Made by a program: the position numbers and the translations under genes
NCBI GenBank assembly: GCA_017443985.1
Contig: JAFSXR010000007.1
Span: forward strand, 1 to 63,943
Direction: 5' to 3'
DNA length: 63,943 bases
From: Synergistaceae bacterium
GTDB lineage: Bacteria; Synergistota; Synergistia; Synergistales; Aminobacteriaceae
Part shown: positions 2,907 to 37,332 of the stretch, piece by piece
Layout of the letters: every line of letters starts with the position of its first letter
How positions within the stretch are numbered: the first letter of the stretch is position 1
The notes under the pieces: model-generated
What the model was told of the DNA's origin: nothing
The model's database searches: none
Seen by the model: only the letters and a program-made list of their open reading frames with translations

Positions 2907-3679
2907 ATTATAAGCCCGAGTTCATAGCATGCCTGCAAGATTCCGCCTTCGTCAATGTCATCGCAAATAAAATCCGCAGCTTCTTTCACTTTTTCAGACG
3001 CTCCGGCAACCGCGACGCTTAACTTAGCATTTTTTAACATCTCAATATCGTTCGGGCCGTCCCCGAAAGTTATAACATCATCGATATTTGCATTTTTATA
3101 TTTCATAAAAATTTCAATGCCGCGCCATTTTGAAGTCTCTGAATTTCTTGCTTCAGTAAATGCGTTCATCAGTTCAAGCCTCACGCCTTCGGGGGGAGCA
3201 TAAAAAATTCCGTGCTTTGCCTCTAAATTTTTCGGCGGCACTAAGATATAGCACATTATTGCGCGTTTTAATTCTTTCATTGATTTTATGCAGTCATAAC
3301 CGGCCTGCTGATTAAAATATTTTCTGAACATGCCAGAATTTTCGTCAGTGTAAATAAATTTTTCATCGGCTGCGGCTGTCAAGTTTGGAAATTTTTTTGC
3401 GGTCTCTAAAAATTTTTCTAAATGTTCATCAGGGAAAAAGGCGTTAAAAATTTCTTGGCCTTCTGAAAAAATCTGCGCGCCTCCAGAGCAAACGAGATTA
3501 TTAATCTCAAATACCTTTGCTGTAGGAAAAGTCAAGAAGCCTGCGCGACCCGTAGCTATTGCAGGAACATGCCCGGCGGCTTTTAATAATTTTATTGCCT
3601 CTCTCGTCTGCTCGGGAATGTGAGGGAAATTTACGTGGCTCACTAATGTGTTGTCAATGTCAAAAAAAATATATTTCAT
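2903..3679 (-). CDS. HAD-superfamily Cof-type phosphatase
   Basis: A 258-residue haloacid-dehalogenase hydrolase of the Cof (IIB cap) type. The N-terminus FFDIDNTLVSH carries the nucleophile Asp7 and acid Asp9. The C-terminal motif TFGDGPNDIEML holds the metal-binding aspartates, and a cap domain occupies about residues 85-185. Such enzymes dephosphorylate sugar phosphates, flavin nucleotides or PLP; the substrate is not predictable here. It follows cobU with a 9-base gap on the same strand, so it may be co-transcribed with cobS-cobU. Its stop lies in the inverted arm of heptamer repeat locus 1. Confidence 0.85.
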   Translation of the reverse strand: MKYIFFDIDNTLVSHVNFPHIPEQTREAIKLLKAAGHVPAIATGRAGFLTFPTAKVFEINNLVCSGGAQIFSEGQEIFNAFFPDEHLEKFLETAKKFPNLTAAADEKFIYTDENSGMFRKYFNQQAGYDCIKSMKELKRAIMCYILVPPKNLEAKHGIFYAPPEGVRLELMNAFTEARNSETSKWRGIEIFMKYKNANIDDVITFGDGPNDIEMLKNAKLSVAVAGASEKVKEAADFICDDIDEGGILQACYELGLII

Positions 3680-32556: not shown

Positions 32557-32606
32557 TCATGTATAATTTTATTTAATTATAATTTTTTTTTAAGGAGCTT
32601 TTCAAC

Positions 32607-32831
32607 ATGAACTGTAAAATAAATTTTCTTTGGGACAACGAAGCAGCAGTATGGATTGCGACAAGCCCTGATGTGCCGGGACTAATGCTCGAATCCGGCT
32701 CACTTGACGCTCTTATTGAACGAGTAAAATTCGCAACACCTGAGCTTATGGAGTTAAATGGAATAAAGCCTGAAAATCTCAATATGTCATTTATTGCTAA
32801 ACGCGAAGACAAGATAACTGTAAATGACTGA
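32607..32831 (+). CDS. hicB: HicB-like antitoxin (DUF1902-type, pair 2)
   Basis: A 74-residue protein with the compact HicB core: NFLWDNEAAVWIATSPDVPGLMLESGSLDALIERV. It lacks an obvious DNA-binding C-terminus. It precedes its toxin gene, the reverse of pairs 1 and 3, and overlaps it by 8 bases. Sequence similarity to the other HicB proteins in this window is low, so it was probably acquired independently. The ATG has AAGGAG about 11 bases upstream. Confidence 0.8.
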   Translation: MNCKINFLWDNEAAVWIATSPDVPGLMLESGSLDALIERVKFATPELMELNGIKPENLNMSFIAKREDKITVND

Positions 32832-33021
32832 GTACGAAAAAATAGTCCGTGAAATTTTGAAAAAGCACGGCTGCTATTTTGTTCGGCACGGCAAAGGCGA
32901 TCATGATATTTGGTACAGCCCGATTACGAATGCTAACTTTGCGGTTGACGGCAAAATTAAATCGCGGCACATGGCAAACGGTATAATGAAACAAAGCGGC
33001 ATTAATCATCATTTCAAATAG
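32824..33021 (+). CDS. hicA: HicA-like mRNA interferase toxin (pair 2)
   Basis: A 65-residue YcfA/HicA protein: YEKIVREILKKHGCYFVRHGKGDHDIWYSP, with His in GDHDIW at the active position. It overlaps its antitoxin and converges on pair 3, whose hicB is separated from it by the TRD remnant at 33008-33117. Its C-terminus (KQSGINHHFK) reads into DNA antisense to that remnant. Confidence 0.82.
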   Translation: MTEYEKIVREILKKHGCYFVRHGKGDHDIWYSPITNANFAVDGKIKSRHMANGIMKQSGINHHFK

Positions 33022-33117
33022 CGATTCAAAATTTCTCCCGTCTCGCCTTTTAATAATTCTAATCTTTTTTCGGCTTCGAGGAGCTTTTCAACTTTCAAGT
33101 ATTTTTTCAAAATTTTA
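33008..33117 (-). pseudogene. Remnant of a target-recognition-domain C-terminus
   Basis: Conceptual translation gives ILKKYLKVEKLLEAEKRLE then LLKGETGEILNRYLK and a stop. This repeats the end of the second TRD at 33608-34188 (EAEKRLELLKGKTGEILKKYL). It starts just after the hicB stop of pair 3, so that hicAB pair sits between two copies of the same coding sequence. No start codon; not expected to be expressed alone. Confidence 0.7.
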
Positions 33118-33333
33118 CGCGTACATTAAATTATTTTTATAATGCGGAATTTCACGCCCAAGCATTTCTGCCGTTTCAAGCCATTCTGCAATAATTATTT
33201 CAGAATTTCTTAATGCTTCTTCTGGTGTATTGCCGTCAGCCATACAGCCTGCAAGTTCAGGGACTTCAACTAGAAATTTATTGTCATCTTCAGACCAGTA
33301 AAGTATTTTTTTGTACTTATCCATAAAAAACAT
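33115..33333 (-). CDS. hicB: HicB-family antitoxin (pair 3)
   Basis: A 72-residue HicB protein: YWSEDDNKFLVEVPELAGCMADGNTPEEALRNSEIIIAEWLETA, the classic core with the PEALxN-type helix. It is short, without a C-terminal DNA-binding domain. It lies 8 bases after hicA 3 in the toxin-first order. Its last codons touch one of the direct repeats. Confidence 0.87.
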   Translation of the reverse strand: MFFMDKYKKILYWSEDDNKFLVEVPELAGCMADGNTPEEALRNSEIIIAEWLETAEMLGREIPHYKNNLMYA

Positions 33334-33341
33334 CTCCCAAA

Positions 33342-33590
33342 TTAAATGCTTAATTTATATTTTAGAATAACATTACGAATCTGTTTAACCTGATACGATT
33401 TTGCTTTGTTACCGTCAGGTTGTATATTAATAATTTCTTCAACTCCGGCTTTCCAATATATAAAATGGCTTCCTCTTGTTCTATGCTGAAAGCCAAGAGC
33501 TGTTAAAAGTTTTTGTAAATCAGAAAACGCAATATTATTATCTTTCACGCCGCTTAAAACATCAAAAAGAATTTTTATAACAGGCGGCAA
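33342..33590 (-). CDS. hicA: HicA-family mRNA interferase toxin (pair 3)
   Basis: An 82-residue HicA: FSDLQKLLTALGFQHRTRGSHFIYWKAGVEEIINIQPDGNKAKSYQVKQI-type sequence with the catalytic His in GSHFIY. It lies 17 bases downstream of the second TRD and in the same direction as the R-M gene, so all may be read from one transcript that begins far upstream. Confidence 0.87.
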   Translation of the reverse strand: MPPVIKILFDVLSGVKDNNIAFSDLQKLLTALGFQHRTRGSHFIYWKAGVEEIINIQPDGNKAKSYQVKQIRNVILKYKLSI

Positions 33591-33607: not shown

Positions 33608-34188
33608 TTAATTCAAATATTTTTTCAAAATTTCCCCAGTCTTGCCTTTTAATAATTCTAATCTTTTTTCGGCTTCGGCAATTTTGTTTTCAAAGACTTC
33701 GCATTCGTCTATAATTTTTTGTTGAACGTCGAGCGGCGGCACAGGAATTTTTAGTGTCCCAATATTATTTGACAGATTATTTATATTTGAGCCTGTACTA
33801 CTTTCAGAAAAAATTTTTTTCATCGTAGAGCTATTCAAAATATAATACAAGTATTTTGAAATGCACTTCGTATTTTTTGCGCGAATAATTCCCATAAATC
33901 CACCTGCATAAAAATTCGTATCAGCCTTTATATATGCAACTTTTCCAACGTGCTTTTTGCTCCCGCTTGACATACAAATAAAAATATCTTTTGCTTTAAG
34001 ACGACTATCTTCAGGAAAATCTTTTTTATCATCAACATAAATTTTCTTCGTTATTTCAAAACGTCCGTCAAGTGTAATATTGTCTGCTGTAAGAACAATA
34101 TTTTGAGTTTCATTTAACCTCTGTTCACCTTTATCGTAATTAACACCTCTAAAGAGTAAAGCAATATCAAAAAGATTAAATAGTTTTA
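33608..34188 (-). CDS. Second target-recognition domain, out of frame with the R-M gene
   Basis: About 193 codons are open from the poly-G tract to the stop at 33608. The order is VKLFNLFDIALLFRGVNYDK (typical TRD start), DIFICMSSGSKKHVGKVAYI, KYLYYILNSS, IPVPPLDVQQKIIDECE and a C-terminal helix EAEKRLELLKGKTGEILKKYL. It has the form of half an HsdS subunit. It has no good start of its own except ATG 33971-33973, which would remove the first third. It is most sensibly the continuation of the preceding R-M gene after a one-base change in the G tract. Confidence 0.82.
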
Positions 34189-37100
34189 CCCCCCCCCCGA
34201 AATGACATCAAGATTGGTAAAAATTTCTTCAATCTTTTTGTGGTAATTTTCAATGCTCATGCGCGTTAAGTTATATTCGTCGTCAACGGCTTCACATTCG
34301 GAAATTATTTTTTGTTGAATTTCGAGCGGCGGAACAGGAATTTTAATTTCTTTAATTTCGCCAACGGATATAGAAGCAAAACCAAGTCCGTTATGTCCTG
34401 TTATATTTTCTTGATTAACTTTCAGAACATAATATAAATAATTTTGCATTACATCATCACTATTTGATTTAATAGCAGCAAGTCCACGCCCTATACAAAT
34501 TTTTTCATATGGATTTAGATTAATATCTCCTACAGGAGCGCGAACACTCATTAATATATCGCCCTTTACAGATTCTTTTGTAATTGAAGATGTCCATACG
34601 GAAGGAGATAACAAATACTTTTCTCCATATTCCTTTTTCCCCTGATAGAACGGTAACCCCAAGCCTTCGCTATTGTAATATTCAGATTGCGGCGATTGTC
34701 CAGCAATAATGTTTGCAATCTCACCCAAATTTTTTATTGAAAATTTACTTTTGATTTCTACCGCTTTATCTGAAGTCAGCTTCATCGCCTTATTAAAACT
34801 CACACGCGAAAAATCTAACATATCCCTCGTATTTACGACTGAAGCATAAACAGACTGCTCTTCGTTAAAAATCGGCACAATCCCCTCAAAAGATTTTTTG
34901 ACCGCATTTGCAAGCGTGCCTTCTGCGGCTCTGTCGTCATCGTTGTAAAGTTTTCCTCCGGCTTTAATGAGTACCATTCCCTCGTTGCCTTTCCTGTTTG
35001 ACCAATCATAGCCGAGAAAATCTTTTTGCTCTTTATTATCCGCCGGAGCTGTAATAATCACGGTGCTTTGACTGTATACCAATGCGAAATATAAAATCTT
35101 TTCCCTTTCAATTCCGTGAGCATATTCATAAAATTTTTTGAGATAAATTTCAGGATTTTTTATTTTCTTAGCTTCCTGCGAATCGGAAAAAGAATTTACA
35201 TACATCTTGAAATATTCAACTGAATTTAATGCTTCTCTTGAAAATTCTTTTTTCAGGAAATTTTTATAATCGTCTTGACTAACTCCAATTTGATTTATAT
35301 AAGCGTCTAAAATTTTTTTGTCCTGCCAGTCCGCGAGAATGACATTATCAAAAATCGCGTCTACGCTATCATTAAATAAATCGCTTTGTTTCGGAGGCTC
35401 GTTGAATTTTTCCAAGAACATAACGACAGTATTTATCCCGGCTTCCCAGAAAGTTTTTGATCCTAATGCAACAATGGCGCGGATATAAAAATTCCGCAAA
35501 ATTATTTCTCGTGCTCCTGTATAGCTTGCACTGTCGTTTGAAAGAATTGAACTCGGCAGGATAACCGCCGCAATTCCTTTAGGCTTTAATAACTGCGAAA
35601 TTCTTTCGACAAAAAGCGTTTCAATTTCGCTTCCGTTGAGGCCGATTTTTTTACTTAAAGTGAAATTTTCTTTAACTTTCTTCTGTAAATATTGCGAGAA
35701 ATCTTTGACGGAGTACGGAGGATTAGAGACTAAAATATCGAAAGTCCCGTTTTCAATTCCTTTATCAGGAGAATTTTCGAGACCGTCGCCGAAAATAATA
35801 TTGCCTTCGCCCGCGCCGTTCATGAACAAAGAAACTTTAGCAACCCTTGCGAGCCTGTAGTCTTTTTCAATTCCGTAAATAGAATTTCTAGCCCAGTCGT
35901 TATTTTCAGACTTTGCAAAAAAATTCAATGCCTCTATTGCTTCTGTCAGGAAATGCCCGGCACCGCAAGCGTAGTCAATGATTTTTGGATAGTCGGATTT
36001 AATCATGCGCTCAACAGGCAGACAATCCCATATGAAGCGCGTTATAGGGATCGGCGTAAAAAATTGTCCTTCATTCTGCTTAAAGCCCTTGTTTAATAAC
36101 TGCTCGAATAAATTTCCTAAAACTGAATATCTTGACTGGTAAATGATTTTATATCTTTCAAAGAGCTGTACAACTTCGACTAAAATTTTACCGTTTTGCA
36201 AAAATAATTCCTCATTGTGAACATCTTTGAAAGCAAAATCATTATTAGTGTAAAATTTTAACTTACGTATAGTTTCTTTTAAGTCCTTAATGGCATTTTT
36301 TCTATTTGCGCCTGTGTAATGCGAGAACAGCCATTCAGGATAATCGGCATCAACATAAAAAATTTTTTCTCGCATAAATTTTTCCATGCCTTCGCTGTGA
36401 AGTTTTTGTAAAGTGTCCTGCAAATCTTCGTAAGTGTCTTGGCCTTGCCTATATTGAAATTTTACTATGCTGTCTTCGCTGCTGTTAGTTTCATCAACCA
36501 GCTTGGCAATGAAAAGAGCTATTAATCTGTTGAAGGCGTTTTCTTTATCGCTGACGTTATTATGTCGCAGGATTTCTTCAAATTGATTGACGATTCTATT
36601 TGCTTCTTCGCTTTCAAATTTCCGTAAATCTTTTTTGAAGAGCGGTTTAATCCCAATGTTATACGCACTTGAATAAACAGAAAAAATTAAATCGTCATGG
36701 ATTTGTTTTTCATAAGTTTCTGCCCATGCCGCGAATTTTTCAGGGACTGTCGGGGAATTTTTATAAAGTTTTATGGTTGTATCATTTTCGGCAAGAAGAA
36801 TTAAATTTTTGTCATCAGAGCAGTTTATTGTCGGAGCTTTATATTTAACTTCGTTATCTTGAAAATCTGAAGAATACAGCACGAGCCATTTACAAGAATT
36901 TTCCTGCTGCCAATATGAAAATAATTGAGCCCCATCGTTTTTAGTGTCTTTAAGAGCCTTTTCAAATTCGCTTCCCCAAGTCTTGCATTCGATAATAAAA
37001 AGCGTCGAGCCGTCCTTATCGTTTACGCAAATATCAGCACGTCCGCCTTTCGCATCGTGTCCTAAGTGCCATTCTTTTTCCAGTTCAATATGTTCGGGCC

Positions 37101-37332
37101 TGTAGCCTTTTTCTAAAAGACGGTTGACACATTCAAACACGACAAAATTTTCATTAGCAGTAAAATTATTATTTCTTTCACGGCCTTTTATGTCGTTAGG
37201 ATAACATAATTCTTTCACTGAAAAGTCAGCTTGCATTGAAACATTTTCAGAAAAAAATTTTTTATACGTAAAGCCGTATTTTTCAAATCCAAGAGCTAAA
37301 AGCAGACTTTCAAAATTTTCTTCAGTAATCAT
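34186..37332 (-). CDS. Single-chain restriction-modification enzyme (type IIG-like), truncated after the first TRD
   Basis: A 1048-residue protein with four parts. Residues 1-210 form a PD-(D/E)XK nuclease (GGRADICVN with D100, LFIIECKTWG with E115 and K117). About 240-420 is a helical connector ending NEGQFFTP. About 425-640 is an N6-adenine methyltransferase (DYACGAGHFL 453-462, NPPY 537-540). From about 885 there is one TRD (IKNLGEIANIIAGQSPQSEY to IPVPPLEIQQKII). It ends GGG-stop in the poly-G tract. Nuclease plus methylase plus specificity in one chain is the type IIG pattern; with one TRD it may recognise a half site or be inactive. Its ATG is 2 bases after the tatD stop, so it uses that operon's transcript. 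Confidence 0.85.
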   Translation of the reverse strand: MITEENFESLLLALGFEKYGFTYKKFFSENVSMQADFSVKELCYPNDIKGRERNNNFTANENFVVFECVNRLLEKGYRPEHIELEKEWHLGHDAKGGRADICVNDKDGSTLFIIECKTWGSEFEKALKDTKNDGAQLFSYWQQENSCKWLVLYSSDFQDNEVKYKAPTINCSDDKNLILLAENDTTIKLYKNSPTVPEKFAAWAETYEKQIHDDLIFSVYSSAYNIGIKPLFKKDLRKFESEEANRIVNQFEEILRHNNVSDKENAFNRLIALFIAKLVDETNSSEDSIVKFQYRQGQDTYEDLQDTLQKLHSEGMEKFMREKIFYVDADYPEWLFSHYTGANRKNAIKDLKETIRKLKFYTNNDFAFKDVHNEELFLQNGKILVEVVQLFERYKIIYQSRYSVLGNLFEQLLNKGFKQNEGQFFTPIPITRFIWDCLPVERMIKSDYPKIIDYACGAGHFLTEAIEALNFFAKSENNDWARNSIYGIEKDYRLARVAKVSLFMNGAGEGNIIFGDGLENSPDKGIENGTFDILVSNPPYSVKDFSQYLQKKVKENFTLSKKIGLNGSEIETLFVERISQLLKPKGIAAVILPSSILSNDSASYTGAREIILRNFYIRAIVALGSKTFWEAGINTVVMFLEKFNEPPKQSDLFNDSVDAIFDNVILADWQDKKILDAYINQIGVSQDDYKNFLKKEFSREALNSVEYFKMYVNSFSDSQEAKKIKNPEIYLKKFYEYAHGIEREKILYFALVYSQSTVIITAPADNKEQKDFLGYDWSNRKGNEGMVLIKAGGKLYNDDDRAAEGTLANAVKKSFEGIVPIFNEEQSVYASVVNTRDMLDFSRVSFNKAMKLTSDKAVEIKSKFSIKNLGEIANIIAGQSPQSEYYNSEGLGLPFYQGKKEYGEKYLLSPSVWTSSITKESVKGDILMSVRAPVGDINLNPYEKICIGRGLAAIKSNSDDVMQNYLYYVLKVNQENITGHNGLGFASISVGEIKEIKIPVPPLEIQQKIISECEAVDDEYNLTRMSIENYHKKIEEIFTNLDVISGGG
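34189..34198 (-). repeat. Poly-G tract (10 G on the coding strand), probable phase-variation switch
   Basis: Ten consecutive C on the plus strand, the longest G:C homopolymer I noticed in a strongly AT-rich window. It lies exactly at the R-M gene's 3' end: TCG GGG GGG GGG TAA. Eleven or eight G would bypass the TAA and continue into the second TRD. Confidence 0.85.

Follow-up and report, generated by a model that had tools for sequence, protein, structure and literature searches.

Introduction

In the Type I system NgoAV of Neisseria gonorrhoeae (hsdS1/hsdS2), a single G turns a truncated S subunit, which recognizes the palindromic site GCAN8TGC, into a fused S subunit with two TRDs that recognizes GCAN7STCA (PMC9577141). 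The one-TRD form EcoR124I delta50 is active (PMC3874165), and more generally one-TRD truncations of the Type I enzymes EcoR124I, EcoDXXI and NgoAV are active on palindromic sites. Similarly, in the Type IIB enzyme BsaXI (RM + S), TRD1-CR1 alone with RM gives ACN5GT (PMC9159934). AloI, PpiI, TstI and CjeI are single-chain Type IIB enzymes of about 1250 aa laid out as R~M~TRD1~TRD2 (PMC3874165; PMC4027205), and HaeIV, which naturally has only one TRD (R~M~TRD), recognizes the symmetric site GAYN5RTC, presumably as a homodimer (PMC3874165).

Homopolymers are known to act on related genes. In the Type IIG enzyme JHP1272/HP1353-HP1354 of Helicobacter pylori, a second homopolymer brings in a further recognition domain at the C terminus, and with it a change of specificity (PMC3936762). 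Cj0031 of Campylobacter jejuni is a single-chain Type IIG enzyme in which poly-G phase variation is ON/OFF (PMC4889913). Across 22 Campylobacter genomes, the cj1051c/CjeI group is listed among the phase-variable genes (PMC6321876), and four clonal isolates had tract lengths of 9/10/9/9 (PMC5135748); the literature examined for this group gave neither the place of the tract with respect to the TRDs nor any comment on specificity.

The gene described here lies on the minus strand of a 63,943-nucleotide stretch of a Synergistaceae genome (hereafter the window). It probably encodes a single-chain Type IIB/IIG restriction-modification (R-M) enzyme whose DNA specificity is switched by slippage of a G tract, between a HaeIV-like and an AloI/TstI-like form.

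The gene and its poly-G tract

The features of the gene are listed in Table 1. The initial annotation had described a 1048-residue R-M protein ending at ten Gs and a TAA, which the minus strand bears out (34198-34186): the context is ...ATT TCG GGG GGG GGG TAA AAC..., the first G of the tract being that of TCG. It had also proposed that one more G, or two fewer, opens a complete second TRD, and this proved correct as well. The shifted frame starts with GTA at 34189 and runs for 193 aa to a stop at 33608-33610; G11 gives a product of 1241 aa and G8 one of 1240 aa (one Gly fewer), and G9 and G10 give 1051 and 1048 aa. This tract is the only run of at least eight Gs in the window, and the gene combines a repeat tract longer than chance with a reading frame set by its length, as expected of an SSR-driven phase-variable gene.

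Because the 1271-position PADLOC type IIG model spans both pieces (positions 1-1068 and 1088-1270), the fused two-TRD chain can be taken as the family norm. The two-TRD form has the domains of the AloI kind in one chain of about 1250 aa (N-terminal PD-(D/E)xK nuclease-gamma N6-MTase-TRD1-CR1-TRD2-CR2), and the one-TRD form has those of the HaeIV kind, R~M~one TRD plus a CR helix, again in one chain. For the enzyme first labelled type IIG-like, single-chain Type IIB/IIG of the AloI/HaeIV kind is a better class name than the Cj0031 kind.

Table 1. Features of the R-M gene and its tract, in positions of the window
Feature	Position	Strand	Evidence
Short-form ORF: endonuclease - N6-adenine methyltransferase - TRD1 - CR1, 1048 aa	34186..37332	-	PADLOC type IIG PDLC03624, 916 bits
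PD-(D/E)xK nuclease core, residues 97-120 (GRAD...IIECKTWG)	36973..37044	-	HSDR_N_2 (HsdR-N-like) E 5.6e-7; D100, E115, K117 invariant in A3
Gamma N6-adenine methyltransferase domain, residues 403-692 (DYACGAG, NPPY)	35257..36126	-	PF02384 E 2e-35; motifs in nearly all homologues
TRD1, residues 863-1022	34267..34746	-	Methylase_S PF01420 E 5e-18
CR1 dimerisation helix, 3' of TRD1, end abuts tract	34201..34338	-	IPVPP-to-tract distance; L085 model
Poly-G tract, G10, one-TRD register; TRD2 opened by G8 or G11	34189..34198	-	Sequence reading
TAA stop of the one-TRD form	34186..34188	-	Sequence reading
TRD2 + CR2, open in shifted frame	33608..34189	-	Methylase_S PF01420 E 1.7e-13

The position of the tract in the protein is informative. 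The last IPxP motif of TRD1 (IPVPP in the window) lies 47 residues before the tract, and 47-52 residues before it in homologues (21 genes in which the motif was found). Since the window's CR2 ends 46 residues past its own motif, the short form stops where a complete TRD-CR unit ends, and it retains a complete TRD1-CR1 unit. The S region of the homologue L085, which naturally has two TRDs, was modelled with AlphaFold2 (pLDDT 88) and has an HsdS-like fold (match to 1yf2, E 2.7e-23). In this model the CR1 helix occupies residues 171-214, the poly-G codons residues 215-217 and the first strand of TRD2 starts from 218; poly-G is thus predicted to encode a Gly loop that links the CR1 helix end to TRD2. 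A model of the whole 1048-aa chain was of low quality (pLDDT 66) and was left out of the interpretation. The starts of CR1 and CR2 are alike in the window (IPVPPLEIQQKIISECE and IPVPPLDVQQKIIDECE), a likeness of the kind that has been linked in Type IC S subunits to interchangeable helices.

That TRD2 is an independent gene with its own start, which the initial annotation had named as the finding that would tell against it, is rejected: no ATG, GTG or TTG is present within the first 40 TRD2 codons of the window, and all 16 one-TRD loci discussed below lack an SD-preceded start in the early part of TRD2.

The tract across the family

Homologues were gathered by running a profile of the genus homologues against genome contigs; the best 80 of 279 relatives, of which 79 were usable, make together with the window gene a set of 80 genes, or 296 kb. 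A G7-G12 tract is present in 29 of these 80, a share that holds among close relatives only (best 80 of 279), and it always lies at the CR1/TRD2 junction (nt 3080-3310 of the ORF). No other run of at least seven Gs or Cs occurs outside the junction in the 80 genes, and a first-order Markov simulation predicts about 6.5 G7+ runs scattered over all 296 kb. The placement of the tract at the junction is not due to chance. In each of the 29 genes one register yields 1216-1272 aa with both TRDs, and the other two stop at most about 40 codons past the tract. Among these best relatives and the window gene, 13 are in the two-TRD register, and eight need +1 and eight -1 to reach TRD2, a split that is close to even.

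The comparison with related genomes proposed in the initial annotation therefore shows that homologues from four phyla share the position of the tract, and the notion that it is a quirk of the window genome alone is rejected. Tract genes come from Bacillota (Monoglobus, Ruminococcus, Lachnospiraceae, Oscillospiraceae, Erysipelotrichaceae and Veillonellaceae), Actinomycetota (Actinotignum, Leucobacter and Actinomycetaceae), Bacteroidota (Bacteroidales/Prevotella) and Synergistota (the window gene), and the junction tract is thus present in at least four phyla. L102 ('Prevotellaceae' inside Actinomycetota) and L113 ('Saccharibacteria' inside Bacteroidota) were excluded from this count because the taxon names of these MAGs disagree with the tree. 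Two tract genes lie beyond the 29, L165 and L172. The former, one of three homologues on viral contigs, has G8 at the junction together with a separate frameshift in TRD1; phage and plasmid collections held no homologue spanning 80% of the query, only distant matches. Within the genus, the nearest relatives (L026 and L087) are without a long tract, and L091 carries an in-frame C-G6 at this site. Given these tract-less neighbours and the 17 changes of tract state on a tree of the R-M part (79 rows), the putative switch is often gained or lost, which weighs against the reading as a specificity switch.

A natural difference in tract length is found in Actinotignum schaalii, in which strain AS1054 has G10 and a product of 1226 aa, and strain FB123-CNA-2 has G11 and 1061 aa. 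The two genes (L115 vs L116) are one G and one SNP apart in 3.8 kb, and their 13-kb surroundings are 96% identical. Unequal tract length between close relatives thus exists in this species, the window's own species being represented by one genome, although a homopolymer sequencing error could lie behind the A. schaalii difference. As a separate matter, a near-identical gene in 96%-identical flanks hints that lineages of A. schaalii have recently exchanged the gene itself.

These data bear on two explanations in which the DNA does not switch. In the first, the assembly would be wrong at the G10, or the gene would be a decaying pseudogene. The window's genome is indeed fragmented (76 contigs, about 75% complete) and homopolymers are error-prone, but the same tract is found in independent assemblies, isolates included (Actinotignum and Leucobacter). 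Decay is difficult to reconcile with a TRD2 whose frame is otherwise intact in the 16 one-TRD loci, and with dN/dS values of about 0.03-0.11 in the R-M pairs compared, where dS was measurable. This explanation is very improbable. In the second, programmed slippage along the G run, during either translation or transcription, would produce both proteins at once from unchanged DNA, which would be consistent with a G run directly 5' of TAA and with the fact that a -1 slip in the window leads to the full-length frame. However, +1 and -1 are needed equally (eight and eight one-TRD loci), which leaves no programmed direction and led us to reject a programmed frameshift; together with the natural tract-length difference in A. 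schaalii, this makes slippage of this kind extremely improbable.

A proposed switch of specificity

In the proposed mechanism, slipped-strand changes in the tract would reset the reading frame in the Gly loop that joins CR1 to TRD2. In two of the three registers, including the G10 of the window, translation would stop right after CR1, and the resulting R-M-TRD1-CR1 short form would be active and pair via CR1 with a second copy, the dimer presumably methylating and cutting an interrupted palindrome as HaeIV does. In the third register (G8 or G11), read-through into TRD2-CR2 would yield an AloI/TstI-like enzyme with an asymmetric bipartite site. It also seems fairly likely that the family as a whole, found in at least four phyla, mostly among gut and host-associated bacteria, alternates between HaeIV-like palindromic and AloI-like asymmetric specificity by means of the tract at the CR1/TRD2 hinge.

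The main rival is classical ON/OFF phase variation, in which the two-TRD form alone would be active and the one-TRD registers would be OFF. This is the commonest outcome of SSR phase variation, as in Cj0031 (PMC4889913), and the finding that 16 of the 29 tract genes (best 80 of 279 relatives plus the window) are in one-TRD registers is compatible with a costly restriction enzyme that is kept off. Besides, an active endonuclease with changing specificity should endanger its own chromosome until the new sites are methylated, which is a point against a specificity switch. Nevertheless, the tract spares the catalytic and DNA-binding domains and falls just past a complete TRD-CR unit, the R-M domains are constrained in relatives fixed in a one-TRD state, and Type I and IIB relatives stay active when cut to one TRD. 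ON/OFF variation is therefore considered unlikely, though it deserves serious attention.

Homologues fixed with one TRD include L088, in which the tract is eroded and TRD2 lost, and L100 and L114, in which TRD2 is deleted; in L103 the tract is broken and an intact TRD2 is locked out of frame, and in L034 TRD2 itself is broken. The R-M part of L088 has a dN/dS of 0.08-0.10, like that of switching relatives, and either position, 1 or 2, can hold the same TRD families. It is because of these fixed one-TRD relatives, the constraint on L088, the occurrence of TRDs in either position and the active one-TRD forms known elsewhere that we infer a switch of specificity in preference to ON/OFF. With the junction tract in four phyla, the one-G pair in A. 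schaalii and the complete TRD1-CR1 unit, this comparative evidence supports the original suggestion that the tract may alter specificity, not merely the on/off state.

Exchange of TRDs can also be followed within the genus. One TRD2 family (IGKRVLN...VFSANVxEPFGYVDELL) is joined to differing TRD1s in L026, L031, L033, L035, L036, L038 and L039, and these differing partners look like a reassortment of recognition halves.

Genome surroundings and other G tracts

The nearest named relatives of the window genome are MAGs from goat and deer gut. Upstream of the R-M gene lies a TatD-like gene (named from sequence); on the downstream side, hicA/hicB-like genes are accompanied by a small duplicate of the R-M gene 3' end. 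On the minus strand (33009-33125 and 33115-33590), this second copy of the S-domain 3' end (EAEKRLELLKGETGEILNRYLK) lies out of context past a hicA/hicB-like pair, and the toxin-antitoxin genes look as though they were seated between two copies of the R-M gene 3' end. A further hicB/hicA-like pair is found on the plus strand (32583-33021), and HicB- or RelE-like genes often lie 3' of homologues elsewhere in the genus.

In the whole genome there are 79 G6, five G7 and one G8 tracts, yet eight of G9-G12, which means that long tracts are in excess. The other G9-G12 tracts look like contingency loci (C7, C35, C70, C8, C22, C29 and C59; gene names read from translations). Two end the signal peptides of beta-helix repeat surface proteins, in the same context LILGGG, and one is within an FkbM-like methyltransferase. 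In C8 the tract lies between TTGACG and TATAAT, a promoter-like sequence, in C22 just upstream of a secreted-protein gene, in C29 upstream of a prepilin-like gene and in C59 in the leader of a flagellin-like start. Tracts of at least nine Gs are present in all 43 genomes of the window's genus, with 2 to 59 in each (59 in G026, 49 in G032 and 46 in G037), which suggests, at the level of sequence, that phase variation is widespread in this gut Synergistaceae genus.

Implications and comparison with known systems

If the proposed switch is real, a single-base slip would shift the genome-wide methylation pattern and the barrier to phages and plasmids in many commensal gut bacteria, and the state of the switch could be typed from tract length alone. 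Single-chain Type IIB enzymes would then include an epigenetic system, natural and widespread, that switches specificity. A review regards it as a mystery how an AloI-type enzyme functions with a single R-M unit for two TRDs (PMC3874165), and natural one-TRD and two-TRD versions of one enzyme would be material for testing this mode of action.

The initial annotation knew of no described case in this organism group; there are precedents in NgoAV, in HP1353-1354/JHP1272 of H. pylori and in the phase-variable CjeI group of Campylobacter. Type I (NgoAV) already provides the logic of the switch, and the MmeI-like IIG enzymes of H. pylori a related idea. NgoAV resembles the window gene in that its poly-G closes the first TRD half (PMC9577141), but its HsdR, HsdM and HsdS are separate, whereas R, M and S form one chain in the window. 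Unlike the window gene, JHP1272/HP1353-HP1354 has an MmeI-like continuous site and gains a small domain, with no second HsdS-type TRD-CR half, and the Cj0031 tract divides its gene at position 2573 of 3732 bp. In the open-licence literature no prior description was found of single-chain Type IIB enzymes with a tract at the TRD1/TRD2 hinge, which is no proof of absence; the likeness of the CjeI group to the window gene is drawn from literature descriptions. BsaXI is the nearest solved R-M relative (8w0p), but its S subunit is separate and its truncation was engineered rather than natural. The two forms of the window gene finally have their own counterparts: the R~M~TRD1~TRD2 layout of AloI, PpiI, TstI and CjeI is common to the two-TRD form, and HaeIV, for which no switching has been described, would be the equivalent of the short form.
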